49,699 nt of DNA from Bacteriovoracaceae bacterium (GTDB lineage: Bacteria > Bdellovibrionota > Bacteriovoracia > Bacteriovoracales > Bacteriovoracaceae): NCBI GenBank assembly GCA_023954635.1, contig JAGSHI010000010.1:1-49699 (forward strand). Direction: 5' to 3'. How positions within the stretch are numbered: position 1 is the first letter of the stretch; every line of letters starts with the position of its first letter. The notes beneath the pieces are model-generated. The model was given only the letters and a program-made list of their open reading frames with translations, made no database searches and had not been told where the DNA came from. The position numbers and the translations under genes were made by a program. Below, in pieces: positions 22,322-40,430 of the stretch.

Positions 22322-23246
22322 TTTTAAAGTACTTTTTTGCTGTTTCGATGTCTGCTTTAATTTGAGAAACTAATTCATTAACAGAGTTAAACTTAACCTC
22401 ATCTCTCACTCTTTCAACAAAGCTAATCGATAGCTCATCACCGTAAATATCGTTATCAAAATCAAGAAGGTGTGTTTCGACACTGTAAATTTCATCATCC
22501 TTGAAAGTAGGGTTAATACCGATATTTGTAACTGAAAAATACACTTGATCTCGGTAAGTTGATTTTGTTATATACACCCCGCGCTTAGGAACGAGTAGAT
22601 CTGTGTCAAAGTCAATATTGGCTGTAGGTATCCCAATTTGTCTTCCCCTGCCTGCTCCTTTAATCACATGACCAGAAATAAAGAAATCTCGCCCAAGGCA
22701 CTCATTAGCTTCTTTAATATTTCCATTTTGAAGATATCTTCTAATTTTTGACGAAGAAATATTCTCACCCTTGTGTTTATACTCAGGTTGAATTTCAACG
22801 GCACATTTATCTTTACAATAATCTTGAATAAATTTGTGGTCGCCAGTTTTATTACTTCCAAAGGCAAAGTCATAACCCAGATAAAATGTCTCCAAGTTTG
22901 GAATACTTAAAATATGGTCATCAATAAACTTTTCTGGGGCCATTGTGCTAAGATCGCGAGTGAAGTGGATCTCAATAAGTATATCGACTCCATTCTTTTC
23001 AAGAAATGCTCTCCTTTCAGCATAGGTATTAAGTAGGAAAGCGCTTAATCCTTTTATTATTTTTATTGGATGCGGATTAAATGTCATCACAATCATTTTA
23101 TGATTCTTCTTATCTAACTCTTTTCTTACTCTAGAAAGAAGATCTTGATGTCCCAAGTGTACGCCATCAAAATTACCTATCGTCAGTCCAAAAGGGCCTT
23201 CTTCAGAGGTCTGAAATTGTGATATCTTCGTCTCTATTACTTTCAT
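22314..23246 (-). CDS. ribF: Bifunctional riboflavin kinase / FAD synthetase
   Basis: 310 residues, full length. The N-terminal FMN adenylyltransferase domain has 'LTIGNFDGVHLGHQ' (HxGH nucleotidyltransferase signature) and 'SSSKIRRYLQNGNIKEAN'; the C-terminal kinase domain has 'GAGRGRQIGIPTANI'. It makes FMN and FAD from riboflavin. The start lies inside the 3' end of batD (44-base overlap), which is long, but the conserved region begins only about 18 residues in, so no later start is available. Overlaps aroE by eight bases downstream. Confidence 0.96.
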   Translation of the reverse strand: MKVIETKISQFQTSEEGPFGLTIGNFDGVHLGHQDLLSRVRKELDKKNHKMIVMTFNPHPIKIIKGLSAFLLNTYAERRAFLEKNGVDILIEIHFTRDLSTMAPEKFIDDHILSIPNLETFYLGYDFAFGSNKTGDHKFIQDYCKDKCAVEIQPEYKHKGENISSSKIRRYLQNGNIKEANECLGRDFFISGHVIKGAGRGRQIGIPTANIDFDTDLLVPKRGVYITKSTYRDQVYFSVTNIGINPTFKDDEIYSVETHLLDFDNDIYGDELSISFVERVRDEVKFNSVNELVSQIKADIETAKKYFKND

Positions 23247-24936
23247 TTAATTTTTTCTCATAAAATTTTCTGAGGTTCTTAAAATATTTATCATCATACT
23301 TTAATTCTTTTCCTCTTGTATCATCATCGAAATTAGATTTTTCAGTTTCTTCAACAATATATTTAAAATAGTTTTTACCATCTTCATCAAGCCCAATGGC
23401 CGAGACAACCTCTGTCAACGTTCTTTTCTGCCCGTCTGGCACAACTTCTCTTAGTTTTTCTATTAAATCAAATAAGTTCGAATAAGATATTCCATTTTTC
23501 CTTATTTCTTTGCATATAGAGTCAAAGTCATCATTTTTCGTACCGATCCCGACTTTTTCTATAAATAAACTTACACAAATGAGAAAACCTATCACACCCA
23601 AAAGCCAGTTCAGTAAGTTTAAGACTCCACCAAACTTACTTACAAATGGTTCTTTAAAGACTGGGGCAACAATTCCCCTAGCGACATTCACAACGGCCTT
23701 CTCTTGAGTAGAGACTGACTTAGTTTCATTCTTATTTGAAGTTTGATTTACAAGTACTCCTTGATTACCAGTAGACCCGCCTCCTATTGTGATTCCAGGT
23801 ACGTTTAGAGTCTCAGTCTGAAATGTAGCCGTCTCTGGGTTAAACCAAGAGAGTTCTTTTTGAAAAGCCTCTATTACTAATCCACTTCTTGCTAGATAGG
23901 TATATTCAAATGTCTTCCTACCAGTTTTCTTGTTTATTTCATTAAGTTCTGTTTTCGTATCGAATTTTTCAAGTTCAGGGTGAACATAGATTTTAGGAGC
24001 ATCCATGTTTTCGAGTGCCCCAGGGCCACTTACCTGTAACTTAACCTCAATGGGCTCATTTACGAGATGTTTGTTCCTATTGTTTATAATTGTAAACTCA
24101 TGTTTACCCACAAGACCCGTGAAGCTATCCGGGACATTCGCCGCAGGCAAAGGTTTAACTGTTATTTTAACCTTCTTAGATGAAACATTCCTTTGTCTGT
24201 ATTGACGGAGTTGTAAACCAAAGTTACCAAATGGAGAATTTTGGTATCCCGCACTATACTGCACTTTTAAGCGAAGTGAATCTATATAAGCTGTCCCCGT
24301 TTTCTCAGGAAAAACTTTTGCTGAATATTTTAATACTCGTTTATAAATCTCTCCATCATGTTGAACTGTCTCAACTCTTTCATTTGTCATATGAAAACGT
24401 TTTATAAAACGATTTAACTTTGGAAATTCCTTGATCTCTGTCCCACCAACTGGAACTTTGTAATAGAGGTAATACCTAACATCTATACCTTCGCCGATAT
24501 AAACTTCTTTTTTAGATACTTCTGCGACAGCAAAAATATTTCGAGCTTTAGGTGCTGTCCTTAATACTTTTAAAGAAACCCCTCGGGATTTTATTTTTTT
24601 ATTACCAAGCTCTACTTCGATATTTCGAATATTAAAACGTCCTGCCTTGTTTGCGACCATTTCATAGGCATATTTCACAACTCTTCGAGTAGAAAACCTC
24701 CCATTTACGATTGTCGTTGATATAGAAACACCTCTCTCCTCACGGCCAAGGACATTTAGTCCTCCCGGATCGAAAGATATATACGGTTTTCCTTTATGGT
24801 TTGTTGTAATTTCAAACAAGAGAGTAAAGTGTTCACCCACTATCGGGCGAGAAGGATTTACTTTAACCTCAACCTTGTTTTCTGCAAAGGCAGAAAAGCT
24901 TACTACCATCAGCAATAAAAAGATTAGTTTTTTCAT
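23203..24936 (-). CDS. batD: Bat operon protein BatD
   Basis: 577 residues with a signal peptide (MKKLIFLLLMVVSFSAFAE), a large periplasmic region of Ig-like beta domains starting 'KVEVKVNPSRPIVGEHFTLLFE', a single membrane helix near 445-465 ('LLNWLLGVIGFLICVSLFI') and a charged cytoplasmic tail. This is the oxygen-tolerance/BatD architecture. It follows the batB gene by two bases, the normal position for BatD. Bat proteins were named for aerotolerance in Bacteroides; the molecular activity is not established. Confidence 0.9.
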   Translation of the reverse strand: MKKLIFLLLMVVSFSAFAENKVEVKVNPSRPIVGEHFTLLFEITTNHKGKPYISFDPGGLNVLGREERGVSISTTIVNGRFSTRRVVKYAYEMVANKAGRFNIRNIEVELGNKKIKSRGVSLKVLRTAPKARNIFAVAEVSKKEVYIGEGIDVRYYLYYKVPVGGTEIKEFPKLNRFIKRFHMTNERVETVQHDGEIYKRVLKYSAKVFPEKTGTAYIDSLRLKVQYSAGYQNSPFGNFGLQLRQYRQRNVSSKKVKITVKPLPAANVPDSFTGLVGKHEFTIINNRNKHLVNEPIEVKLQVSGPGALENMDAPKIYVHPELEKFDTKTELNEINKKTGRKTFEYTYLARSGLVIEAFQKELSWFNPETATFQTETLNVPGITIGGGSTGNQGVLVNQTSNKNETKSVSTQEKAVVNVARGIVAPVFKEPFVSKFGGVLNLLNWLLGVIGFLICVSLFIEKVGIGTKNDDFDSICKEIRKNGISYSNLFDLIEKLREVVPDGQKRTLTEVVSAIGLDEDGKNYFKYIVEETEKSNFDDDTRGKELKYDDKYFKNLRKFYEKKLNESNRDEDITISDL

Positions 24937-24938
24937 TA

Positions 24939-26705
24939 TTACCAGTCCTTCCTCTGTCTATTTCTTGTGCGATCTCTTGTTGATGTATCTTGATATCTTT
25001 TCTGAAGCTGTCTATCAGTATCCATAATTTGCTTTAACATCGCCGGTATCTTTACCATTTTTCTTTTCTTTCGCAATTCTTCTTCACGTTCTTCAAGCGA
25101 CTGTTGTTTCATTTTATCTTTTTTCTTTTTTCCATCTTTTTTGTCTTTATTTTTGTCTTTTTCTTTATCTTTATCTTTTTTCTTTTTCCCATCTTTTTTG
25201 TCTTTATTCTTTTTGTCTTTTTCTTCGCCTTTAGAGCCATCTGAGCTCTTTTGGTTTTTGTCGTCGCCTTCTTGCCCTGATTTTTTCTTTTTATCTTTGT
25301 TTTTCTTATCTTTCTTTTGCTTCTGATTCTTTTTTTGCTGAAAGGCCAATAGTATATTTTTTCTTAACGTGTTTTTAAAGTCCTCAGGTAACTCGGCTAT
25401 CTCATTGAGATCTGCGTAAATTTTAGCTGCATCATTTATGTTTCCGGTTTTTAAGTAAATAGTTCCAAAATTTGCAGTTGCCAGTGGCTGATCCAAGTAA
25501 TCATTCTTTTTTAAATTTTCTTTATATATCTCTAGTGAGTGTTCATTTCTCTCATCAGTGGCTAAAAGCTCACCTAGCTTTAATTTATTAACTTGCCCAA
25601 TGCCACCCTTTTTCATTTTACTCATCAAAATTACTGTTTTCTCACTAAGTGGCTTTTCTTCTTCATCCTCATTGGCACGTACATCGTTAACATTGACGAG
25701 GAAAAGTAGGAATGCCGCCAATGGTACTGTGAATGTTTTAAACCCACCGAGTAAGTTTGCAATGATTAAAAGTATAACGGCTGGATAAACAATATATTGT
25801 GCATACACAGGCCTAGTTCGAACTAGTCCCTCATTCAGTTTTGATTTATGTATATTTCTAAAAAATGATAATATTTCTTCTGTTGGAATTGAAAATGATG
25901 TCGAAATCCAATATTTAAAATTCGATGCATCACTTCCAAGTTTTTTGATAAAGGCTTCATCTAACTTTGTAACAACGTTTTCACCTTTGAATTTTTTATA
26001 ACCATAGAATGTACCTTTAGCATTTCGTATCGGTATGGGAGCTCCCCTCGCAGTTCCAACACCAACGACTGCTAAATTTACCTTATCTGGAATCTCTAAG
26101 GAAAAGGTATTCTCATGTTCCTCACTATCTGTGAAAACAAGTACATTCCCACCGATACTTGATTCCTTACCGGCATCAACTTTAAAATATTGAAATGACT
26201 CTTTTATCGCTTGAGTAATATTCGATCCACCTTTCAACAGTTCATTTCTAGCTAAACCGGCGACACGACTATCCAACAAATCAATATCATCTGTGAATGG
26301 AACTAAACGTTTTTGAGTATCGGAAAACAGTACAACTGCAATTTGGTGACCAACTGCTTTTTTAATAAAGTGGCGGGCCAAAAGAATTGATTTTTGAAAT
26401 CTATTTGGGCGTATATCTTCTGCAGACATACTTGCACTTGAATCGATAATTACAATCGTTTTTTGATCTGGTATTTGAGACTTATGTTGCTGTTCAGGCC
26501 CTCTAAGATCCAGTATTGCAATAAAGAAGAATATAAAAGCTAGAACATAAAAAAGTTTAGAGAGTTTGTTTACAAATGATCTTTCATAAAAGAAATATTT
26601 CTTTATCCATGTAAAGTATTTCTTTTCAAACTTGAGGGTTAACCACAAGAACATTGCGAGAACAGGAATAATATATGGGAGCCATTCTAGTTTTTGAAAG
26701 TTCAA
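24939..26705 (-). CDS. batB: BatB-BatC fusion: VWA domain, TPR and lysine-rich tail
   Basis: 588 residues. Two N-terminal membrane helices (about 9-24, 51-66), then a von Willebrand A domain with MIDAS residues 'DSSASMS' (from Asp88), Thr in 'GGSNITQAI' and Asp in 'FTDSEEHE'. Two membrane helices follow (about 305-345), then TPR units ('LGELLATDERNEHSLEIYKENL', 'NFGTIYLKTGNINDAAKIYADL', split) and a long Lys/Asp-rich low-complexity region with a duplicated 'KDKKDGKKKKDK' segment. Elsewhere the TPR/Lys-rich part is the separate BatC protein, so this looks like a BatB-BatC fusion. It overlaps batA by four bases. Confidence 0.88.
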   Translation of the reverse strand: MNFQKLEWLPYIIPVLAMFLWLTLKFEKKYFTWIKKYFFYERSFVNKLSKLFYVLAFIFFFIAILDLRGPEQQHKSQIPDQKTIVIIDSSASMSAEDIRPNRFQKSILLARHFIKKAVGHQIAVVLFSDTQKRLVPFTDDIDLLDSRVAGLARNELLKGGSNITQAIKESFQYFKVDAGKESSIGGNVLVFTDSEEHENTFSLEIPDKVNLAVVGVGTARGAPIPIRNAKGTFYGYKKFKGENVVTKLDEAFIKKLGSDASNFKYWISTSFSIPTEEILSFFRNIHKSKLNEGLVRTRPVYAQYIVYPAVILLIIANLLGGFKTFTVPLAAFLLFLVNVNDVRANEDEEEKPLSEKTVILMSKMKKGGIGQVNKLKLGELLATDERNEHSLEIYKENLKKNDYLDQPLATANFGTIYLKTGNINDAAKIYADLNEIAELPEDFKNTLRKNILLAFQQKKNQKQKKDKKNKDKKKKSGQEGDDKNQKSSDGSKGEEKDKKNKDKKDGKKKKDKDKEKDKNKDKKDGKKKKDKMKQQSLEEREEELRKKRKMVKIPAMLKQIMDTDRQLQKRYQDTSTRDRTRNRQRKDW

Positions 26706-27676
26706 ATGGCCTCCTTAAGAAGATACTTTCTTAAGAGCTCGGCAAGAACCAGCCCAAAGAGACCATAAAGAAAAAATTGTAAATACATCTCTTTATATAT
26801 AATTCGACTTGAAGCTTTAATCTCTGTTCTTTCTAATTTTTCAATTTCTAATAATACATTTTTAAGAGCTTCATCATTTTGGGCCAAGTAATATTTAGCC
26901 CCTGTAATAGATGCTATTTGTCCAAGAGTTTTCGTATCAATACTTCCTCCAGGAATTGTTTGATATTGTTTTTTCCCAAACAGTGTTCTTCCAACTGGTA
27001 TTCTTGCATCTTCACGTCCACCCATTCCAATTGTATATACTTTAATTCCTTGTTCTTTTGCTTCTTGTGCAGCCTGAAGAGGAGTCATACTACCCACATT
27101 ACTCACCCCATCAGTTAATAGAATAATTACTTTATTTTCAGCAAGAGACTGTGCGCCTCTTGCAACTGCCAGAGCTATAGCATCACCGATATTTGTACCG
27201 CTTCCCAGGAAGCCTACATTTATCTCAGTAATGATTTGTTCTATTAGCTTCAAGTCAGTAGAGAGAGGAAGTAATGTAAATGCCTTCTCTGAAAACATAA
27301 TTATTCCAATTCTATCTTTAGGTCTAAGCTTTACAAATTCACTAATTTTACTTTTTGCAGCTTCTAAACGATTAGGCTTAAAATCTTCCGCCAACATAGA
27401 CTTAGAAACATCTACGACGAAGAATATATCATTCACCTCAATATTATTCTCAGATAGACCCAATGGCTTTCTAGGTTGTCCCATACTAAAAGAAATTAGT
27501 AGCCATGCCACTAGCCCTATAATGAATACGACAGCACGCATTAGGTTTCTCTTTCCGATAGAAAGATTTTTTGGCAAGAATACCTGAGCTTTTTTTCCAA
27601 TTTTGAAAAAGCTAAAAGTCCATACCAACATTCCCAACAGACCCAAAAATATTCCTGAAAAGTTTCCGTAACTCAA
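26702..27676 (-). CDS. batA: Bat operon VWA protein BatA
   Basis: 324 residues: two N-terminal membrane helices (about 8-24, 46-64), a VWA domain with intact MIDAS ('VVDVSKSMLAEDFKPNR', 'SGTNIGDAI', 'LLTDGVSNVG') and a C-terminal membrane helix (about 300-318). This is the canonical BatA layout, with the metal-binding domain on the periplasmic side. It overlaps both neighbours by four bases, so the operon is tightly coupled. Likely an inner-membrane complex with BatB and BatD, assembled or remodelled by MoxR. Confidence 0.92.
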   Translation of the reverse strand: MSYGNFSGIFLGLLGMLVWTFSFFKIGKKAQVFLPKNLSIGKRNLMRAVVFIIGLVAWLLISFSMGQPRKPLGLSENNIEVNDIFFVVDVSKSMLAEDFKPNRLEAAKSKISEFVKLRPKDRIGIIMFSEKAFTLLPLSTDLKLIEQIITEINVGFLGSGTNIGDAIALAVARGAQSLAENKVIILLTDGVSNVGSMTPLQAAQEAKEQGIKVYTIGMGGREDARIPVGRTLFGKKQYQTIPGGSIDTKTLGQIASITGAKYYLAQNDEALKNVLLEIEKLERTEIKASSRIIYKEMYLQFFLYGLFGLVLAELLRKYLLKEAI

Positions 27677-28449
27677 TTAAAAATACCTCTTATATTATCA
27701 AACGTTTCCTTAACAGTTGTTGTTTCTTCTTCATCCCAGCCTTTCTTATATTGGACAGACTCCATTACTCTAAAGAACTCGACGATCGGTGGTGTCTGTA
27801 GGGTAATTAACTTTAGCCATTCCCTTTTCCGAGCATATATTATTTCAAACTCATCTCTATTGGAGGCTGAACTAAAGCGATCTCCCCAAAATTTTTTAAA
27901 TTTTTCTTTTTGTTTTTTTATTTCTGACTTTCTCATTAAGGAATAATAAATCCTTTTATAAAATGGAAGTCCCCCCAAGAGGACAAGAGCTAAAAGATAA
28001 TAGAGTAATGAAAAGCTAGTAATTTTTTCTTCTGCTTGTTCAAATACTATCAATGCCTTTTGATCTAATGTTGTTTTCTCTGATTCAAGCTCTAGTTGTA
28101 CAAAGTGTTTAACTTCACCTATCTTCCATTCCAAACTTGAACTTTGAGGTTTTGATATTAATATCATCAGTCCTTCCATGAACAAGACATCAGCATTATT
28201 TTCAGATCTACTTTTTGTGAAATCTTCTACTATATAAAAATGTTTTAAGAAGCTTTGCCCTTTTTTAATATTGAAAGCCTCATCTGATTCCAAAACTGGC
28301 CAAATTTGAATTCGGGCCCTAAACACATCACCTTCATGTATTTTTTTATTCTCTAGAGGTCTCATCTTAAAGTTCAACGGCTCACTTGATGCAACACTAA
28401 GGTTCAAAGTCGAGATCAATATGAGTGATATAAAAACTATTGTCTTCAT
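27673..28449 (-). CDS. Signal-peptide membrane protein of the Bat operon
   Basis: 258 residues with a signal peptide (MKTIVFISLILISTLNLSVA), a periplasmic beta-rich domain to about residue 145, one membrane helix (about 150-166, 'LYYLLALVLLGGLPFYK'), and a basic cytoplasmic tail. It lies exactly where many MoxR-Bat operons place a small DUF4381-type protein, between the DUF58 gene and batA. I do not recognise the sequence itself, and the role is inferred from position. Its start is adjacent to the DUF58 stop and its stop overlaps the batA start. Confidence 0.75.
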   Translation of the reverse strand: MKTIVFISLILISTLNLSVASSEPLNFKMRPLENKKIHEGDVFRARIQIWPVLESDEAFNIKKGQSFLKHFYIVEDFTKSRSENNADVLFMEGLMILISKPQSSSLEWKIGEVKHFVQLELESEKTTLDQKALIVFEQAEEKITSFSLLYYLLALVLLGGLPFYKRIYYSLMRKSEIKKQKEKFKKFWGDRFSSASNRDEFEIIYARKREWLKLITLQTPPIVEFFRVMESVQYKKGWDEEETTTVKETFDNIRGIFN

Positions 28450-29295
28450 CTACAGCATCTCCTTGATAAACTCTTCAAGGTATCTATTTTCTATTCGTAG
28501 ATTTTTTATTCTTTTATTTGTGGTTAATTCTTCATCACTTCTTTTGAGATTAAATACTCGATGTGCGCCTTTGCTCTTACCTGGAGATTCTTTTGAGTAG
28601 AGCAAAAATGGTAAGCTTTGAGCCTCATCAAGAGGTGAAATAAGTTTAAAAAGATGTATTTTCTTTTGAAACATCACTCTGTGTAATGATTCTTTATCTA
28701 GAAAATCATTAAAATCAGATAGAACAACAAGTTCTCTTTGTCGGCCCATATGTTTTAAGACTTGCCCCATCTTCTTTTTATCCTCGAGCATTTCCGGAAA
28801 ATCTTGTTTAATAATGATCTTACCTTCTGAGTCCAATATCCCATTCTTTACAAGAGTTGATATAAATATTGCAATTCCCTCTTCACCAGATTTCGATGGA
28901 ATGTTAATCACTTTGTCTGCTATAAAGAGGACGTGAACCTGATCAGATGTTTCTCTAGCAAGAATATACAAAAGACAAGTTAACTCTAGTGCGGCCTGAA
29001 GTTTACTTGTACCGTCAACCCCGTTGTACATAGTTGGACTACCATCGATAACGACAGTTATTTCAACATTTCTCTCTTCTTCAAATGTTTTAATATAAGG
29101 AGTCGCTGTTTTTGCTAATAGTTTCCAGTCTATGAAACGTACTTCATCCCCAAGTGCATACACCTGGTGTTCCTTAAATTGTAAACCTGACCCCCGGAAA
29201 TGGGACTTAAGCATACCAATTGAATAATTATTAGAATTTTTAAAAAGAGTAGCCTTAATACGGCTTACAACTTTTCTAACTTCAGTTAAATCCAT
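28450..29295 (-). CDS. DUF58 family protein of the MoxR-Bat operon
   Basis: 281 residues, cytoplasmic. It has the DUF58 core 'YALGDEVRFIDWKLLAKTATP' region followed by 'EEERNVEITVVIDGSPTM', in which the aspartate begins a degenerate VWA-like fold. DUF58 proteins nearly always follow MoxR and precede Bat VWA genes, as here: one base separates it from moxR. Precise function is unknown; it is thought to act with the AAA+ ATPase. Confidence 0.9.
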   Translation of the reverse strand: MDLTEVRKVVSRIKATLFKNSNNYSIGMLKSHFRGSGLQFKEHQVYALGDEVRFIDWKLLAKTATPYIKTFEEERNVEITVVIDGSPTMYNGVDGTSKLQAALELTCLLYILARETSDQVHVLFIADKVINIPSKSGEEGIAIFISTLVKNGILDSEGKIIIKQDFPEMLEDKKKMGQVLKHMGRQRELVVLSDFNDFLDKESLHRVMFQKKIHLFKLISPLDEAQSLPFLLYSKESPGKSKGAHRVFNLKRSDEELTTNKRIKNLRIENRYLEEFIKEML

Positions 29296-29296
29296 A

Positions 29297-30247
29297 TTAA
29301 ATAAATGTCTTCGCTATTTCTAAAGAAACTGTTCTGCTATTCATATTATCGACAGTAGCTTCGTAGGTTAAAATTATTCTATGTCCCAAAACACTTGGTA
29401 CAATTTTCAAAATATTTTCGGGTGAAACGAAATCTTTTCCATCCATAAAGGCCATATACTTTGATATTTTATAAAGCCAAATGCATGCTCTTGGAGATGC
29501 TCCAGCAAGGATAGCCCCTTTGTATTTTTCGGGAAAAGTTGGACTCTCTGGTCTTGTTGCTTGAACAATGTTTACAATTAAATCTTTAATTTTTTCATCA
29601 ACATAAATGGAATCAACAACCTCTTGAACTTGAAGTAAATCATCCGTTGATAACTCGGCTTCAAGCTCTCTTAATGGATCTCGCGACAATCCAAGAATGG
29701 ACTTCTCTGCCTTGAAGTCTGGATATTCAACAAAAACCTTCATCATAAATCTGTCCATCTGTGCTTCAGGTAAAGGATATGTCCCCTCCTGGTCTATTGG
29801 GTTTTGAGTTGCTAATACAACAAATGGACTTGAAAGTTTATGTGTCTCATCACCGATTGTTACTTGTTTTTCGGCCATAGCTTCTAGTAGAGCTGATTGT
29901 ACTTTTGCAGGAGATCTATTAATTTCATCTGCTAATAACAACTGAGTGAATATAGGTCCGAATTTCGTAGTGAACTCTTCGCTTTGTTGACTATAAATCA
30001 TAGTTCCAATCAAATCACTTGGAAGTAAATCGGGTGTAAACTGAATTCTTTTAAAGGATAAATCACATAACTTACTTAATGTATTTACGGATAATGTTTT
30101 TCCAAGACCAGGCATCCCCTCAATGAGGACGTGTCCTTCGCATATCAGCGCGGCCATAATTGCATCTAATAATTCATCCTGCCCAAATATAACTTCTTTT
30201 GCTTTATCCAGGGCAACATTAATTCTTTCTCTAAGTTCAGAACTCAT
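29297..30247 (-). CDS. moxR: MoxR family AAA+ ATPase
   Basis: 316 residues. Walker A 'EGMPGLGKT' (about 39-47), Walker B 'LLLADEINRSPAKVQ' (about 106), sensor 1 'VLATQNPIDQEGTYPLPEAQ' and sensor 2 'GASPRACIWL' are present. MoxR ATPases act as chaperone-like remodelers for VWA-domain partners, which here are the downstream BatA and BatB. First gene of the Bat series, 14 bases downstream of the RlmI-like gene, so probably expressed from the promoter at about 31.5 kb. Confidence 0.95.
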   Translation of the reverse strand: MSSELRERINVALDKAKEVIFGQDELLDAIMAALICEGHVLIEGMPGLGKTLSVNTLSKLCDLSFKRIQFTPDLLPSDLIGTMIYSQQSEEFTTKFGPIFTQLLLADEINRSPAKVQSALLEAMAEKQVTIGDETHKLSSPFVVLATQNPIDQEGTYPLPEAQMDRFMMKVFVEYPDFKAEKSILGLSRDPLRELEAELSTDDLLQVQEVVDSIYVDEKIKDLIVNIVQATRPESPTFPEKYKGAILAGASPRACIWLYKISKYMAFMDGKDFVSPENILKIVPSVLGHRIILTYEATVDNMNSRTVSLEIAKTFI

Positions 30248-31557: not shown

Positions 31558-34500
31558 CTAATCTTGTAAAGATAGATAAGGCGTAAATTCTTCGATTAAA
31601 GAGATGATGTCTTCTGTTTCATCTACGAGTATTTTAATAAGTCCTCTTCTTAAATTTGTTTTTCCATGTTCATTTTTCTCAAGGACATAAGAGCTTAGTT
31701 TGGCGAACTCATCATAATGGGTATTTGTTGTGCATTGCTCAGATCTTCCATCTTCTTGAAAGCAGTTTTCTTCTCTAGTCGTATGGTTTAAATACTGTCT
31801 AAAGGCCTCAAAGTTTATTTTTTTGCTCTCAGAAAATAAAGAAAGTTTATCTGCTAGTTCTTTAAAGCTACCCTTTTGCTTAGGCTGGTGCATTTGATAA
31901 AGAACCGAGTAAAAAGATCTTATATTTCCTTGAAAATCTTCCATTTCATCTTTCTCTGAAATAAATTCAAGTATCATCTGAATACCTGACAATTTACTTT
32001 GAGAATCTTGGCTAAAGAGAAACTTATTTAGTCCTAAAAACATTTCATTCACAATAAAGTAGTATTCACTTTTGGCCTCACTCTCAAGTCCAGTTCTAAG
32101 AAACTTTAACGGTGATGCAATGCCCTTCAACAGATCCATTCCTGTAATTTTTGAGCCATCCTCTCTCTTTGGAAACGTTTCAATTAGAACAGGATAGAGT
32201 TTCACTATTTCATCAAGATAATTAGAAATATTGAAATAATTACTTCTCACATATCTTTTATAATCAGGAGTTAAATCTTTATTTTTAGGAATCCAACTTG
32301 GGACACCAACATATGAAAAGACAACCATCATATCTGAAATAGTTCTCTCGACAAATCTCTGTTCTCCATAACTTAAGTCGGCCATAAAATCTATTATGTC
32401 TTCATGAACTAAGTTTCCATCTTTTGTTTTAGTTTTCACTAGATTATTCAATAATCTTATAGCGGACTCTTCACCACCCTTCGCAGTGAACCCTTCTAAT
32501 ATTTTCTCATTAACAAGATTAAAACTCTTATCTTCTAGGAACTCTTTTAACTCTTCGGGAGTTCTTCCGACTCTATCGCGAGTAACTCGTCCACCATTCG
32601 AGAAGGCTGATAACATCCCAAGTTCTGTTAGAATCACCCCATTATGTTTCTTAAGCTGTCTCTTCGTTTGTAGAAAAGGAATACTTATTTCTTTCCTACC
32701 GACCTTAGTTCGAACGACAGTATCTTTAGCAGAGATCTTCGAAGAGCTTCCCACCACAATACTCAAGAGACCCTTCATATAGTCTCCATATCCAAAGTCC
32801 TCGTATGCATTAGCATCATAGAGTCCATAGTATGCTTCTATAGAATTAATTCCCATACGATACTGATCTCGAGAGAAAAACTTCCCACAAAATCGTAACT
32901 TCATACAAGTTTTAAAAAGTTTACCTTTACCTGCCACTGTCTTGTTGTAATCAATCGATCTTGCAACTGAATTGTGATAATGAGCACCAAGATAGTTCAT
33001 ATCAAATCGAACTTCTCTAATAGTGACCTCAATCCTCTCCATCGTTGTCATAACTTGAAGGTAGTCTTCAGGTTCTACTTTATTTGGCCTTACACCTTCA
33101 GGATAAAAAGGTACTTGTTTTTTATTAATATCAAGAGACTTGTCAGTCAGTTTGTACATCATCTCCATAGTTTCTTTAAGGGTCATTCGTTTTAAAGTTT
33201 GTTCATCTCTATCAAATGGAACTCTTAAACCTTGATCTGGTATGGCAGATCTAACGAGTTGTCCTATACCTGTTGGGTAGTTTTTTTGGTTATTTCGAGC
33301 CAATAATTCTAAAAGCGTCTTAACCCTAGTCTTTACCTCACCTCTATCAGGGCAAGCATTATTACCGATGTTTAAATTTTGGTAATTTTCACACTGATAT
33401 TCTTTTGGTTGAACCTCATCCTTAATTGTGGTGGCCTGTACATCTTTCTTGTTTTCTATCCAAGAGTCATAGTCTTTAAGTACTTTTGAAAAAGATTTAA
33501 AGAGCTTGTTTTTATTTTCCCATTCTTTTTTTACTGCAAATTCTTTAATGATATAACTTCTATGAAAGCGACCATCATCTCTAAACTTATAGAAGTATCT
33601 ACTTAATTGACCTAAAGATTTTTCAATACCTTTAAGTAAACCTTTCTCGCCATTTAATTCGAGCTTTAAATCAAATAAGTATTTTCTTAATACACCAGTA
33701 AAATATTTAAAACCCTTTCCATCTTCTGAAAAATTATCTTGGATGGTTTTTAAAATACCAATATTAGTCCCTAACATAGCTGGAGACATTATCCCCACCT
33801 CATCAAACAGTCCCTTAGACTCCTCTCCTCGAGAACGCTTAGAGTGATAGTCCTTATCTATGGCATCAAGCCAAGAAAACATTCTAATTGTAATTTCATG
33901 TTTTTTAACTTCTTTACACTTTCTTGGTAGGTTTCTAACTAATGAATAAAATGTTTCATCTGGGTTAGATAGTTTCTTAATACACTCAACGATATTTCCG
34001 GTGGGTACACCAGTTGAAATCCAGTCGTACTCAAAAGGTGTTTTTCTTGCAGCTCTGACATAATCATCGACATAATCGACTTCAAAATTTGCGAGGCCTG
34101 GACCATTGATCAAAGCCCCTCTGGATATAACCTGAATAGTTCTTAGGATTTGATCACGACTAAAAAAACCTTTAAAGTCCGAGAGTACCCTTTTACCCGA
34201 AAGCTGAGTAACAATTGTGCGAATTGATTCATAAGTCTTATCAAGGGCCTCATCCGAACCAGCAACTTCTTTAGAGATACTGTCAATAACGCCTGGTAAC
34301 TCATTAAGCATTTTAGAGTAGAAATTGAAGAGTGCAACATAGTTTGTCTCATCATCTAAGTGTCTATCAATAAACTTAAAGAGAAAGTTTCTTTCTTCTT
34401 GAGTCCAAAAATTCCATATTGATGCGAGGGCCTTAAACTGACTTTCGTTTTCATCTTCCATTAGAGTTAAGGCAATAGCTCCAACTTGAGAATATATATT

Positions 34501-35868
34501 GTCATTAATATTTTTTATTATTTTTAAGACAAGCGGATAGAACCCCTCAGATTCTCTCAGTATCACCTTATTCAATTCATTAAAGGATTGAAATGTTTCA
34601 CCACTTAAAAACTCTAAAACATAAAGTATCTTTGATGGATTTTCCCCACGACTAGCTGTGGTTAATATCTTTATTAGCTCGAAGTTTGTTTCTTCTCCAA
34701 GAAAGTCACCTAGGCTTGAAATCAAGTTTACAAAGTCTAAGCTATATTCCTCAGAGACAACCCTATCTCCTTCATAAAACGAAATCCTACTCTTAAAATC
34801 ACCGAGAATTGGACAAAATGGTCTAGCACTAATTAATGTTGCTGTATTTTGTAATGCATACTTTTGAAACTCTTCAAAGTTAGACCTACTTAGTTTTTCT
34901 AAAAATGTTAACAAATGTTCACGCACATCTATCTTTACATACTGATCACCCTCAGAGCTTTCACAAACTAAATCTTTCTCGAATGCATTATTTAAAGCCA
35001 GAGAGTCTTTTATGAAGCTAGGGTTTGTAGAAACAGGATACTTAAAGAGTCTGTTAAATCTTTCTTCTGTTAACTTTCCATTTGTAAACCATTTATGAAG
35101 CCAAGGTTTTCCATCTTCTTTAGTAATAGTAAAAAAGATTTTGGCCATAAATTTTCGTTCATCTTCACCAATTCCCCTAAAGACTGAATTCAACAACCTT
35201 GTGACTAAAGAGAGTCTAAGTTTTACAAAATCTTTATTCTTATAAAATTTTAAAACCTCTATTCTCAAAGGCTCGGCCTCATCACCTATAGCTGCTGTTG
35301 CATTTTTTACTACGTTTGCAGAGTGGCCGTATAAATCACTATCTATTATTAAAAACTTAAACAGGTCTTTAATTTGTGATTTCGTCATTGTGTTAGGCTT
35401 TCTATCTTTGCACTTTTTGCTGTTTATATTTTCAGCACACTCAAAAAGTATAGATAGAGAGTCATAGAAGTTTGTTTCATTGAGGGCGGTCATTACTCGA
35501 CCAAGGTCATCTAGACCATTAACAGCATCAAGCTGCTTAACATGTCTGAAGATTCGATCTCTTCTCACTCTATTGTCAAAAAACTCTCTTCCAAATGGAC
35601 CGAATACATGGTTCCAGTCCTTTGCTCCAATATTTTGTACTGCCTTATAAAGGTCAGGGTAAGCGCCATTCCAACCAGTACACTGAAAAAGGTTTAGACT
35701 ATTCGTATGAGAAAAAAAGTTTTTAACAAAGTTAACTTTTCCGCACGCCTTCATTCTCTCTTGATCTTCTACTGATCGAACAATATCAGGACGTACAGAC
35801 GGAGACTCCTGCTTAAAGCAGGAGTTTAAGAAAGATAATGAAATAAGAACTAAAACTAATGATTTAAT
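31558..35868 (-). CDS. Giant lipoprotein, 1436 residues, apparent AUU start
   Basis: The first ATG in frame (35754) gives 1398 residues without any export signal. The frame stays open a further 117 bases upstream and encodes MKSLVLVLISLSFLNSC if ATT at 35868 is read as the start: a perfect type II signal peptide with lipobox LNS|C (Cys17 at 35820-35818). There is no ATG, GTG or TTG between the stop codons at 35872-35877 and the cysteine. The mature protein is long, charged, mostly helical, with scattered cysteines and no domain I recognise. It begins six bases after the LolA-like gene stop, suggesting coupled translation. Likely an outer-membrane-anchored or periplasmic lipoprotein; function unknown. 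Confidence 0.8.
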   Translation of the reverse strand: MKSLVLVLISLSFLNSCFKQESPSVRPDIVRSVEDQERMKACGKVNFVKNFFSHTNSLNLFQCTGWNGAYPDLYKAVQNIGAKDWNHVFGPFGREFFDNRVRRDRIFRHVKQLDAVNGLDDLGRVMTALNETNFYDSLSILFECAENINSKKCKDRKPNTMTKSQIKDLFKFLIIDSDLYGHSANVVKNATAAIGDEAEPLRIEVLKFYKNKDFVKLRLSLVTRLLNSVFRGIGEDERKFMAKIFFTITKEDGKPWLHKWFTNGKLTEERFNRLFKYPVSTNPSFIKDSLALNNAFEKDLVCESSEGDQYVKIDVREHLLTFLEKLSRSNFEEFQKYALQNTATLISARPFCPILGDFKSRISFYEGDRVVSEEYSLDFVNLISSLGDFLGEETNFELIKILTTASRGENPSKILYVLEFLSGETFQSFNELNKVILRESEGFYPLVLKIIKNINDNIYSQVGAIALTLMEDENESQFKALASIWNFWTQEERNFLFKFIDRHLDDETNYVALFNFYSKMLNELPGVIDSISKEVAGSDEALDKTYESIRTIVTQLSGKRVLSDFKGFFSRDQILRTIQVISRGALINGPGLANFEVDYVDDYVRAARKTPFEYDWISTGVPTGNIVECIKKLSNPDETFYSLVRNLPRKCKEVKKHEITIRMFSWLDAIDKDYHSKRSRGEESKGLFDEVGIMSPAMLGTNIGILKTIQDNFSEDGKGFKYFTGVLRKYLFDLKLELNGEKGLLKGIEKSLGQLSRYFYKFRDDGRFHRSYIIKEFAVKKEWENKNKLFKSFSKVLKDYDSWIENKKDVQATTIKDEVQPKEYQCENYQNLNIGNNACPDRGEVKTRVKTLLELLARNNQKNYPTGIGQLVRSAIPDQGLRVPFDRDEQTLKRMTLKETMEMMYKLTDKSLDINKKQVPFYPEGVRPNKVEPEDYLQVMTTMERIEVTIREVRFDMNYLGAHYHNSVARSIDYNKTVAGKGKLFKTCMKLRFCGKFFSRDQYRMGINSIEAYYGLYDANAYEDFGYGDYMKGLLSIVVGSSSKISAKDTVVRTKVGRKEISIPFLQTKRQLKKHNGVILTELGMLSAFSNGGRVTRDRVGRTPEELKEFLEDKSFNLVNEKILEGFTAKGGEESAIRLLNNLVKTKTKDGNLVHEDIIDFMADLSYGEQRFVERTISDMMVVFSYVGVPSWIPKNKDLTPDYKRYVRSNYFNISNYLDEIVKLYPVLIETFPKREDGSKITGMDLLKGIASPLKFLRTGLESEAKSEYYFIVNEMFLGLNKFLFSQDSQSKLSGIQMILEFISEKDEMEDFQGNIRSFYSVLYQMHQPKQKGSFKELADKLSLFSESKKINFEAFRQYLNHTTREENCFQEDGRSEQCTTNTHYDEFAKLSSYVLEKNEHGKTNLRRGLIKILVDETEDIISLIEEFTPYLSLQD

Positions 35869-35874
35869 AACCTA

Positions 35875-36696
35875 TCACTTTCTCAAGCCTTGAGTAATAT
35901 AGCGCTGAGCCTTACCTGTATTAACTTCATATTTTGAAAACTTTACTTCTGTTTGTAATTCTAATTTACCTTTCTTATCTTTTTGTGATTTAGGCTTAAC
36001 TAATTTTCTTGAAGTAATGACTTTTACATTTTTAGGAAAGCCAAAACCATCAACGTTTTCATATTCAACTTTGTGATTAATTTCAGTCATTTGAATACCC
36101 TGAATCGACTTAATCAGCAAGTTATCGACGACCCATTTATTATGTGACCAAGACTTCGCTGACATTTTCATTTTTGAAGTGTTTACACCCATAGGGCTCA
36201 TGGTTTTAAATCCTGTTAACTTGCCGTCCCCATCAAAACTTAGTCTAATTTCGTTAACGGCCCTGGTGTGAGTTTTATCGGTACCAACAATAGTTGTCCC
36301 TCTTTTTGATTTTTTTGATTTCAGTGCATAGCTTCTTACTTTTGGAGATAATCTTTGTGGAATTACGAAGTCCAACCGATTTTTAACCATCGTTTTTAAT
36401 TCAGCTTTGATTTCTTTGAATCCCAACGGAAGTCCTTCGACATCAACTTTAAATTTTCCAGGGTACATCCAATAAATCTTGAAATAGACATCTGCCAAAT
36501 CCTTAATATTTAATCTTTGTTTCATCGTTTTAACTAGATTAGTCATACGAATTTCAAAAACTAAATCCTTTAGACCGTAGTTGGCTGGATCATAGTATTT
36601 GATATCAAAATTCTCGATTTCAGCGGGGGTTGAAGTTGCACTAATATTTAGTGAATAGAACATAAGGCCAATGACCAAAATAATTTTTTTAAACAT
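35875..36696 (-). CDS. Exported protein, LolA/LolB-like candidate
   Basis: 273 residues with a signal peptide (MFKKIILVIGLMFYSLNISA). The mature part reads as alternating beta strands, e.g. 'ADVYFKIYWMYPGKFKVDVEG' (split) and 'EINHKVEYENVDGFGFPKNVKV', similar in style to LolA/outer-membrane lipoprotein-sorting proteins that bind lipoprotein acyl chains in an unclosed beta-barrel. Homology cannot be proven by eye. It is followed within six bases by the giant lipoprotein gene, which makes a carrier-cargo relationship a reasonable hypothesis. Ribosome site GAGGAA precedes the ATG. Confidence 0.7.
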   Translation of the reverse strand: MFKKIILVIGLMFYSLNISATSTPAEIENFDIKYYDPANYGLKDLVFEIRMTNLVKTMKQRLNIKDLADVYFKIYWMYPGKFKVDVEGLPLGFKEIKAELKTMVKNRLDFVIPQRLSPKVRSYALKSKKSKRGTTIVGTDKTHTRAVNEIRLSFDGDGKLTGFKTMSPMGVNTSKMKMSAKSWSHNKWVVDNLLIKSIQGIQMTEINHKVEYENVDGFGFPKNVKVITSRKLVKPKSQKDKKGKLELQTEVKFSKYEVNTGKAQRYITQGLRK

Positions 36697-36739: not shown

Positions 36740-38068
36740 CTAGCGATTTGAGGCCCGAGATACATCCTTAGAAATAATTTCCCGCCAGTTTGGATCATAG
36801 TCTGACTGAAAGTATCGGGGTTTCGAAATTGTTACGGCCCCTTTTCTTCCACTAACTCCCCTAACTTTCCCTACAGTTGCATAAATAACTGATATTTCGA
36901 AACCTTTTGAACCTGAGTAATCTCGTAGGACACTCGCTATAATAGGAAAAAGCTCAGGAACTAAGTCTCCTTTCAAAATTAAATGAGATCCTGTTTCTCC
37001 TTCAATATGAAACCAATAGTCGTCTTTTTTGCCCCAGTACTTACGTAGTTCATCGTTTCCAGTGGCAGATTTACCTATACCTATCTTCACACCAGATGCT
37101 AGTTCAAAAAGTTCATAGTCCCCTGAGGGTTTTTTATTTTTTTCTAAATTGTTTTTATGCTTTTTCCCTTTACCCCAATTTATTGGAATGACCTTAAAAG
37201 ATGAAATATCAAAATCATCAATTTCACTTTTAATTTCACTTAGCTTTTCTTTTGAATCAGACAGCCTCACCTTCTGTATTTGGTAAGCTCTCTCCCAGTC
37301 CTTGAGTTTACCAAAAAGCTTATCTCTTTTTTGAAACTGAGTTAGATCTTTTTTGAATTTAACTTTTAGGCCCTCATGGTTAAAGACTGCCCCAAGTTCT
37401 AATTTATTTTCAACCAAGTCTTTTTTATAATTATCAACGGTCTGAAGTCTCTCGACATCCGTTTCTATTTTTCCTATTTTACTCTTGGTTTTTTTTAATA
37501 CTTTTTTCCTGATACTCCCCTTGCGACCTCTTTGCTCAAGACTTGCAAAATAGTTTTCTATTTCACCACCCTTTCCCCACAAGCTCTTTTCAGTATATTC
37601 ATTAAACAACTCTCTTGGGTTTTCAACATTTACCTTTCCAGCCCAAGACGTAAAAACCTTCTTATTCCCCTCTGTTTTTAATGCGAACCCAACCCCCTCT
37701 GATCCAAGTCCCCAGAATAACGTTTTCTTTTTTCCTTTTTCATAAAAATCAATTGTAAGCAAAGGAATATTTTCATCCGCACAGACTCCAGTAATAGATC
37801 TCCCCTTTAATTCTTTTTTAAAAGATTCAACCGTTTTGTCCTTATGAATTCTATACTTTGCTGGCACATAGGTATCCAATGTCCAAAATCCAAAATACTC
37901 AGCCCCCCTACCAAGGTAAATGTAGAGAGACTCCCCCTTCACTCTTACTTGGAGGCATAATATATGAGGTGTAGTGGTTATTTTCTGAACTTGCGCAGCC
38001 CCCTTCTCAGAGAGCACAGAGGCAAAATCCGTTGTCGTTTTTAATATTTCACTGTAACTTTGTTTCAT
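36740..38068 (-). CDS. NFACT-domain protein, RqcH-like
   Basis: 442 residues from the ATG at 38068 (a TTG six codons earlier is in frame but has a poorer site). N-terminal NFACT-N-like region (1-180), a basic coiled coil (about 190-300), and the NFACT-R domain with the typical 'KYWGKKDDYWFHIEGETGSH' (about 350-370). RqcH binds the 50S subunit carrying a stalled peptidyl-tRNA and adds alanine tails. This protein is about 100 residues shorter than Bacillus RqcH, and the Asp-Arg pair required for tailing is not evident (the equivalent region seems to read DENIP). It diverges from mutS2 with overlapping start codons. Confidence 0.82.
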   Translation of the reverse strand: MKQSYSEILKTTTDFASVLSEKGAAQVQKITTTPHILCLQVRVKGESLYIYLGRGAEYFGFWTLDTYVPAKYRIHKDKTVESFKKELKGRSITGVCADENIPLLTIDFYEKGKKKTLFWGLGSEGVGFALKTEGNKKVFTSWAGKVNVENPRELFNEYTEKSLWGKGGEIENYFASLEQRGRKGSIRKKVLKKTKSKIGKIETDVERLQTVDNYKKDLVENKLELGAVFNHEGLKVKFKKDLTQFQKRDKLFGKLKDWERAYQIQKVRLSDSKEKLSEIKSEIDDFDISSFKVIPINWGKGKKHKNNLEKNKKPSGDYELFELASGVKIGIGKSATGNDELRKYWGKKDDYWFHIEGETGSHLILKGDLVPELFPIIASVLRDYSGSKGFEISVIYATVGKVRGVSGRKGAVTISKPRYFQSDYDPNWREIISKDVSRASNR

Positions 38069-40430
38069 GCAGACAAACCTTTTCAATCCAGAAGCAGCAC
38101 AATCTTTATTCGACTCCTTCGATTGGAACTCTATTATATCAAAACTTGGATCTCAATGTTTCTTTGAGGCCTCGAAGAGAAAAATAACTTCTTTTAGCCC
38201 CCTACTTCCTGTTGAGATAAGCTCCTCTCTAGATAGACTTGAGGTAATTGGTGAGAGATTAGATTTCTACAGAAATCATTTTTCTCAAAATACACAATTC
38301 TTAGATTCATCCATCGAAACCTATAAAAGGTTTTTTGAGTTTGAAAAAGGTCACTCTGGAGACCTTACTCTTTTAAATTATGTAACCCTACACTATGAAA
38401 TGTTTCAATCATCATTTGGTGTTTACAAAGAACTTGGATATATCAGTGAGTCACTCTTTTCACCGAGTGTTTTGAACTCTTTTAGGAAAGTACTCTTGAA
38501 TGAGTTTAGAAAAGTTATAAACCAAGATGCAACGATTAATTACAATAGTCACCCAATTCTAAAGTCACTTTTTAAGGAACAACAAAAATTAGAAATCCAG
38601 ATTCGTGAGATTATGTCTAAACTCCCACGCTCTAGTACCTATGAGAAAGCAGTACAGTACCCTGAGTATGACATACTCTTTGATCATTTCGTTTTGGCGA
38701 TAAAGTCTGATAGTTACAATTCTAAAATGGGCCAAATTATTGGCAGAAGCTCAAGCGGCAACACACTACTCGTAGAGCCCTCTCAGATTAGAGAACTTGG
38801 AAATGCTAGGCTTCAAGTAAATGCAAAAATTGAAGAGTTTCTAAACGCCATCTATCGCCAGGTATCTGGATTCATTTTCGATAATTACAATATTTTCCAA
38901 ACCATCCTTGAGCAAAACATCCAGTTTGATTTAGATATTTCAAAGTCCTCTTATTGTTTAAATAATGACTTCACTAGACCTCTCATTTCTAGTCATTTCA
39001 AAGTTAAACTTGATGATTTTTTCAATCCCTTACTTGATGAACCTGTAAAAAATAATATTCTAATCGAACATAATAATCATGGTGTTATTATCAGTGGCCC
39101 AAATACGGGAGGGAAGTCAGTCGTTTTAAAAAGTGTAACTCTTTGTTATATGTTTCTCCACTTAGGAATGTTTGTTCCCGCATCTAATGCTGAATTGTCT
39201 ATCATCAATGGTCTTTATTTTCTCTCTAGTGATCTCCAAGACATTAGTGAGGGCCTTTCAAGTTTTTCAAGTGAAGTCCAAAACTATTTAGACTTACTCA
39301 ATCAAATAAATGGAAACTCTTTAATTGTAATTGATGAGATATTTAATAGCACTGCCTCTGAAGAAGCCTCTGTTTTAGCTGCCGGCTTAATTGATTATAT
39401 ATGCAGTAAAAGTAATATTAAGTTACTTGTTAGTACTCACCATAAAAAACTCAAAAACTTTATCTACGATAAAAAGCAATTAATTTCAGCTCATATGGGG
39501 TTTGATAAAGAAGATCATTCTCCTAATTATAAACTTTATATGGGGGAGCCTGGTAGCTCATATGCTTTATCAATTTTCCAAAAGTTGGGAAAGGGGAGTC
39601 CCGTTTCCAATAAGATTCTCAAAAACATTGAGGCCTATCAAGATGATGAAGGTATTGACCTAGAATCAATTCTTGAGGAAATTTCAAACAAGAATCAACT
39701 CTTAGAGAATGAAAAAGAAAAAATTAGTAAAGAATTAACTGATATAAGAAACAAAACAAAGGCCTTTGAAGTCAATATTGAAATGAATAAGGGTCAAATA
39801 CTGGCTAATTACGAAAGAAAACTTAAGAAACAACTCGATAAATCTGAAAAGCTTCTTGAGTCAGTAAGAAAGAATGAAGTGAAAAGCAAAAAAGCACTTT
39901 ACAATAAAATTTCAGAGATTCGACAAGAATTTAATAAAGATGGGAAGCTGCCTTCTCTGGAAAAACATATACCAAGAGGTGAGGCTGTCGACTTTAGTAA
40001 TTTAGAAACAGGTGTCACCTATTTTTCCTCAAAAACTAATTCGAATGTATTACTAGAGCAAATAAACTTAAAGAAAAAGACAGCACTTGCAATAGCAGGA
40101 AGCATGAAAGTTCGAGTCCCCTTGGATTCTATTTTTGAATCTAAAGAAGCAATGAAACAGCAGATCGTTAAAGTAACTATTGATAGAACTGTTAGGGGAG
40201 ACATACTTGTAGATGGACGTGGACTGCGCTTAGAAGAGTTTCAAAAAATTATCTATGATTCCATTGTAGATCTTGAGTCTGGAGAAATTCCTTTTTTAGA
40301 CATTATTCATGGTCATGGCGAAGGAATATTAAAGAAATGGGTAAGAGGCTATCTCACTAAAAACAAAGATCTAAGCTGGGAACCTGAAGAGGGTAACGAT
40401 GGAGTAACTAAAGTTAAACTTAAAGTTTAA
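38067..40430 (+). CDS. mutS2: MutS2 family ATPase with Smr domain
   Basis: 787 residues, full length. Core and clamp domains lead to Walker A 'GPNTGGKS' (344-351), 'SSDLQDISEGLSSFSSEV' , Walker B 'SLIVIDEIFNST' and 'VSTHHKKLKNF'. A long coiled coil (about 530-625) precedes a KOW-like segment and a C-terminal Smr domain ('DGRGLRLEEFQ', 'IIHGHGEGILKKW'). In Bacillus MutS2 recognises collided ribosomes and splits them, and in other species it suppresses recombination. The Smr 'DxH/DLR' position reads DGR. No ribosome site precedes the ATG. Start overlaps the NFACT gene start, stop overlaps the lepB stop. Confidence 0.93.
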   Translation: MQTNLFNPEAAQSLFDSFDWNSIISKLGSQCFFEASKRKITSFSPLLPVEISSSLDRLEVIGERLDFYRNHFSQNTQFLDSSIETYKRFFEFEKGHSGDLTLLNYVTLHYEMFQSSFGVYKELGYISESLFSPSVLNSFRKVLLNEFRKVINQDATINYNSHPILKSLFKEQQKLEIQIREIMSKLPRSSTYEKAVQYPEYDILFDHFVLAIKSDSYNSKMGQIIGRSSSGNTLLVEPSQIRELGNARLQVNAKIEEFLNAIYRQVSGFIFDNYNIFQTILEQNIQFDLDISKSSYCLNNDFTRPLISSHFKVKLDDFFNPLLDEPVKNNILIEHNNHGVIISGPNTGGKSVVLKSVTLCYMFLHLGMFVPASNAELSIINGLYFLSSDLQDISEGLSSFSSEVQNYLDLLNQINGNSLIVIDEIFNSTASEEASVLAAGLIDYICSKSNIKLLVSTHHKKLKNFIYDKKQLISAHMGFDKEDHSPNYKLYMGEPGSSYALSIFQKLGKGSPVSNKILKNIEAYQDDEGIDLESILEEISNKNQLLENEKEKISKELTDIRNKTKAFEVNIEMNKGQILANYERKLKKQLDKSEKLLESVRKNEVKSKKALYNKISEIRQEFNKDGKLPSLEKHIPRGEAVDFSNLETGVTYFSSKTNSNVLLEQINLKKKTALAIAGSMKVRVPLDSIFESKEAMKQQIVKVTIDRTVRGDILVDGRGLRLEEFQKIIYDSIVDLESGEIPFLDIIHGHGEGILKKWVRGYLTKNKDLSWEPEEGNDGVTKVKLKV

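Follow-up and report, generated by a model that had tools for sequence, protein, structure and literature searches.

A giant lipoprotein gene of Bacteriovoracaceae that very probably starts at AUU, at a tight junction with a conserved partner gene

The gene for a giant predicted lipoprotein of a Bacteriovoracaceae bacterium very probably initiates at an AUU codon, six nucleotides behind the stop codon of the preceding gene. The coding sequence lies on the minus strand of the 49,699-nucleotide stretch of DNA analyzed here, referred to as the window, at positions 31558..35868 (stop codon, at 31558, included), and specifies 1436 amino acids when counted from the ATT. Across the junction, the minus strand reads AAG TGA TAG GTT ATT AAA TCA TTA GTT TTA GTT CTT ATT and continues from there with TCA TTA TCT TTC TTA AAC TCC TGC. 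The TGA (35877-35875) is the end of the upstream gene and shares the frame of the lipoprotein gene; with the TAG that follows it (35874-35872), it makes up a double stop (35872..35877, minus strand). A search for ATG, GTG, or TTG in frame from this TAG (35872) to the lipobox cysteine yielded none, the first being an ATG at 35752..35754 (minus strand), which a mechanical gene caller would choose and which is not conserved as a start. The conserved N-terminus therefore has no canonical codon, as the sequence-only reading of this DNA had noted, and a near-cognate AUN codon sits at the right place. This proposed initiation codon, the ATT at 35866..35868 (minus strand), would be read as fMet; it is the sole near-cognate of AUG between the upstream stop and the core of the signal peptide, and the single codon one position off ATG within the usable stretch. 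Taking it as Met gives the N-terminus MKSLVLVLISLSFLNSC. The same reading had placed the signal peptide and the six-base spacing from TGA to ATT, and its coordinates for both are correct; it was also right that gene callers would miss the signal peptide by beginning at 35754. The case for the AUU start is built on phylogeny and on the exclusion of alternatives, and not on counts of absent canonical starts.

The predicted N-terminus carries the signature of bacterial lipoproteins, i.e., a short n-region with lysine or arginine, a hydrophobic core, and a lipobox ending in cysteine. The signal peptide (MKSLVLVLISLSFLNS) is encoded at 35821..35868 and the lipobox cysteine, which opens a C-x-x-Q motif, by the TGC codon at 35818..35820, both on the minus strand. 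We read 49 starts of orthologues or close paralogues from about 15 genera, the window gene included, and a hydrophobic signal peptide with a lipobox, then C-x-x-Q, was kept in every one of them. An alignment of 15 sequences shows C18 and Q21 to be invariant. The window lipobox, LNSC, is slightly off consensus in having an atypical asparagine at position -2, where orthologues have SSC, ISC, or VSC. The giant protein thus appears, from its predicted N-terminus, to be lipid-anchored in a membrane, and its signal peptide together with a phenylalanine at position +2 suggests a periplasmic location anchored in the outer membrane, by analogy with the lipoprotein sorting rule of E. coli.

Orthologues were found in 61 of the 129 genomes of the family (a search widened to the order likewise took in 129 genomes, and no orthologue from beyond the family came up), and the full-length ones mostly measure 1350-1490 codons; the gene is present in a single copy in the window genome (G000), with an open frame of 1437 codons. 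The nearest orthologue (G077) is 67% identical over the half that was assembled together with its start. It too has no ATG, GTG, or TTG before the signal core and offers ATA AAA CAA CAG ATT CTA instead, the ATA lying 7 nt after an SD-like TGAGGA and one base after the upstream TAG. A distant orthologue (G055) likewise has no canonical start; its sequence reads GGAGG TAAAA ATT AAT AAA (SD of -10.9 kcal/mol), with the ATT five bases after GGAGG and sharing one base with the upstream stop, TAA. Judged by these motifs, the site in G055 is a textbook initiation site save for the codon. In its sister G054, the ATT is found again at this position, but together with an in-frame ATG two codons upstream, and G054 was scored as ATG in our counts. 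The third member of the genus of the window organism, G078, has an ATG with AAGGA. In a phylogenetic tree, G000 and G077 are sisters (support 100/100) with end branches of 0.22 and 0.27, about 0.5 substitutions per site apart, while G078 falls outside the pair and G055 stands far off in another clade. The tree points to at least two lineages in which the giant gene has a non-AUG start, one of them old, and the simplest history would be a loss of the canonical codon once before the split of G000 and G077 and again in the line of G055. Conservation in related genomes had been proposed as a check on the start: the signal peptide and lipobox held in all 49 starts and a non-canonical start was kept in relatives (ATA in G077, ATT in G055), but ATT as such is not conserved, most other relatives having ATG, GTG, or TTG. 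AUU itself, to judge from these sequences, is not required, and any constraint is seemingly on weak starts rather than on AUU.

We compared the 49 orthologue starts (26 ATG, 20 GTG or TTG, 3 with neither) with those of control open reading frames (ORFs), defined by a lipobox no more than 60 codons from the stop, taken from stretches of 528 kb in G000, 306 kb in G077, 184 kb in G055, and 400 kb in G004. Among the 60 control ORFs of these four genomes, 54 had ATG, 5 had GTG or TTG, and 1 had none, so that 59/60 had a canonical start. The one exception (L160, in G004) resembles a membrane protein and is probably not a lipoprotein. No ORF lacking a canonical start was found among the 23 other lipobox ORFs in the 528 kb of the window genome (0/23), and a missing canonical start is unusual for the lipoprotein genes of this organism. 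ATG was absent from 23/49 orthologues versus 6/60 controls (Fisher P = 2e-5), a value that ignores kinship and is overstated, since one genus (g4) supplies many of the ATG-less orthologues. The absence of any canonical start (3/49 versus 1/60) did not differ significantly (P = 0.32). On these comparisons, the AUU start looks gene specific and weak.

The upstream gene (35875..36696, minus strand) encodes a 273-amino-acid exported periplasmic protein that is weakly LolA-like. What it shares with LolA (PF03548) is export and a weak partial profile match; its score in Pfam (E = 0.0066, 16.6 bits) is below the gathering score of 23.6, so membership is not established, and similarly weak LolA matches occur in 3 of 17 members of the upstream gene. 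The protein is 81% identical in G077 and appears to be a conserved partner of the lipoprotein, its gene being found directly 5′ of the lipoprotein gene in 29/29 loci and ending 37-84 nt before the cysteine codon. The three non-AUG genes start 6 nt after the upstream stop (window), 1 nt after it (G077), or overlapping it (G055). Coupling of translation to the preceding gene, already put forward in the sequence-only reading, gains support from this constant gene order and from the short or overlapping junctions at the 29 loci, and we consider reinitiation by ribosomes from the upstream gene likely. The SD ahead of the window ATT is weak (-6.4 kcal/mol, equaled or bettered by 16% of random window positions); a strong or extended SD that could compensate for the weak codon is absent from the window gene and present in G055. 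Local folding of the mRNA near the start amounts to -16.2 kcal/mol over 100 nt, a value computed without a shuffle control, and an Rfam search of the window returned no matches.

In the mechanism that we propose, ribosomes ending the upstream gene at UGA, 6 nt before the AUU, would already be positioned to reinitiate there with initiator fMet-tRNA. The weak codon and weak SD would allow this for only a fraction of the ribosomes, and the output of the giant protein would be low relative to that of its periplasmic partner. IF3 discriminates against both AUU and AUA, and synthesis of the lipoprotein would therefore be expected to drop at high levels of IF3, as it does for infC. Whether low expression serves a purpose, as an IF3-sensitive brake, is a tentative proposition that we would put at well under even chances. 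Extended to the whole family, it would be a selected brake in which weak starts (TTG and GTG throughout the family, AUU and AUA in two lineages) hold the lipoprotein substoichiometric to its partner in a manner tied to the level of IF3, and in which termination-reinitiation, rather than a strong SD, makes AUU and AUA usable; this too we regard as doubtful, though conceivable. Low expression and IF3 control would be in keeping with the excess of weak starts and with the literature on AUU and AUA starts. In Staphylococcus aureus, the AUU start of cvfC1 and the AUA start of ccpN lower yield (PMC13009471), and in Streptomyces the GTC start of sigR is repressed by IF3 and sets a protein ratio (PMC5472188). 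Excess IF3 lowers reinitiation, more strongly in the absence of an SD (PMC2268962). A literature search on AUU starts of lipoprotein genes gave nothing further beyond these three papers.

The serious rival to a brake accepts the place of the start and contests its purpose. In this account, AUU and AUA arose by near-neutral drift at a coupled junction and have no regulatory role; the start codon would be under weak selection because reinitiating ribosomes are already on the spot, and would wander among ATG, GTG, TTG, ATA, and ATT. We give such drift a substantial chance, short of an even one. It fits the start codons of the orthologues, which vary freely even inside one genus, the tight stop-start junctions, and the ability of post-termination ribosomes left on the mRNA to initiate at noncanonical codons upon inactivation of RRF (a point discussed in PMC2268962). 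Against it, the excess of weak starts described above suggests that weak initiation is favored, although that excess is inflated by relatedness, and an AUN codon has been kept in both G077 and G000 across their roughly 0.5 substitutions per site.

Rivals that concern the place of the start fare less well. The GTT immediately 5′ of the ATT is an unlikely start codon, although sigR, with its GTC, offers a precedent. An error in the sequence of the start region, read as GTTATTAAA, is unlikely. Such an error would mean either that ATG really stands at 35868 or that there is one base fewer between 35876 and 35868, in which case the GTG whose first base is 35878 would start the gene as M-I-G-I-K-S-L-V. 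This GTG (35876..35878, minus strand) is one base out of the lipoprotein frame and overlaps the upstream TGA as GTGA, a common coupling arrangement, and the window genome is a draft of 219 contigs, the compared genomes being draft assemblies as well. However, the separately assembled sister G077 also has no canonical start and needs ATA, G055 has none either and carries a near-perfect SD at the right spacing to its ATT, and three independent errors hitting the start of the same gene would be very improbable; nor was any other lipobox ORF of the 528 kb without a start. That the gene begins at the ATG at 35754 and encodes a cytoplasmic protein, the upstream frame being open by chance, is highly improbable even though this is the first canonical start and the one given by a mechanical caller. 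The stretch upstream of it holds the lipobox signal peptide kept in all starts read, with its invariant cysteine and glutamine, and the stretch between the cysteine and the ATG is conserved as protein in G077 (12/21 residues). The sequence-only reading had taken this ATG for a wrong start, in agreement with its position within conserved coding sequence, where G077 has CTT and most orthologues have leucine. Moreover, the protein downstream of it has many invariant cysteines, which is typical of exported proteins. Readthrough of TGA TAG that fuses the upstream protein to the lipoprotein, suggested by the two stops lying in the lipoprotein frame that the upstream gene shares, has a negligible chance and was rejected, as there are two consecutive stops, the signal peptide would end up inside the fused product, and the frame relation is not conserved, the upstream gene being in a different frame in both G077 and G055.

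With the AUU at 35868 as the preferred start, the giant lipoprotein gene is a new member of a kind already known from infC, pcnB, sigR, cvfC1, and ccpN. To our knowledge, well-supported AUU or AUA starts outside infC are few. The infC gene, which encodes IF3, starts at AUU, AUC, or AUA behind a strong SD and autoregulates. As a positive control for this classical type of start, we inspected infC in 10 genomes of the family (L053, i.e., G000:C191, and L184-L192) and found the stretch from the upstream stop to the conserved region free of ATG, GTG, and TTG in 10/10; these genes offer ATT or ATC, mostly behind GGAGG. The organisms of the family thus carry a classical IF3-discriminated start. An AUN start discriminated by IF3 is what infC, which in the window genome has only ATT or ATC behind GGAGG, would share with the window gene, whereas infC combines a strong SD with autoregulation and the window gene has a weak SD, a start after a coupled stop, and an envelope lipoprotein as its product. 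Binns and Masters (2002, as cited in PMC13009471) reportedly found that the AUU start of E. coli pcnB limits synthesis, a feature that the window gene may have in common with it; the pcnB product is an unrelated cytoplasmic enzyme, and we do not know of pcnB as a member of a coupled envelope gene pair. The conserved, yield-lowering noncanonical starts of cvfC1 and ccpN can be likened to that of the window gene, but they have extended SD motifs (PMC13009471), in which G055 resembles them and the window gene does not. The noncanonical start of sigR determines in what ratio two cotranscribed products are made, under repression by IF3, as the AUU might here, but the codon is GTC and the pair is a sigma factor and its anti-sigma factor (PMC5472188). 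The giant gene lacks a canonical start in two or more lineages and lies at a tight junction of stop and start, so that it can be tested directly whether reinitiating ribosomes put up with codons that IF3 disfavors. It also exemplifies a class of annotation error, as a start at 35754 would have this giant, conserved lipoprotein of the envelope annotated as a "cytoplasmic hypothetical."

Searches of the lipoprotein body against Pfam, NCBIfam, and PDB gave no significant profile or fold relatives; weak PDB profile matches (Syn-F4, a de novo protein) were taken as composition artifacts. AlphaFold models of both halves were nearly all alpha-helical, with pLDDT values of 82.5 and 84.5, and a fold search with both halves gave no match under an E value of 0.1. 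The protein belongs to a family of giant, nearly all-alpha lipoproteins found in about half of the genomes of the bacterial family, and perhaps acts as a scaffold.

Several additional features were observed. In G055 (locus L028), a start codon with a stop directly behind it (AUG UGA) occurs in frame 18 nt before the ATT, perhaps by chance or perhaps as a start-stop element. The control exception L160 (6749-7582, plus strand) is a frame of 278 residues with an N-terminal hydrophobic stretch, before which there is no ATG, GTG, or TTG; a candidate start ATT follows GGGCAGGTTTTT, the frame has no Pfam match, and it is possibly another AUU gene. Downstream of the lipoprotein gene in the window, two genes on and past one gene for an RlmI-like methyltransferase, MoxR, DUF58, BatA/BatB-like VWA, and BatD genes (23203-30247, minus strand) form a Bat (aerotolerance-type) operon. 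On the other side, a gene that weakly matches NFACT (RqcH-type; 36740-38086, minus strand) and a MutS2-like gene with MutS domain V and Smr (38067-40430, plus strand) are divergent and overlap at their 5′ ends; the RqcH-type and MutS2 families are both linked to ribosome quality control.
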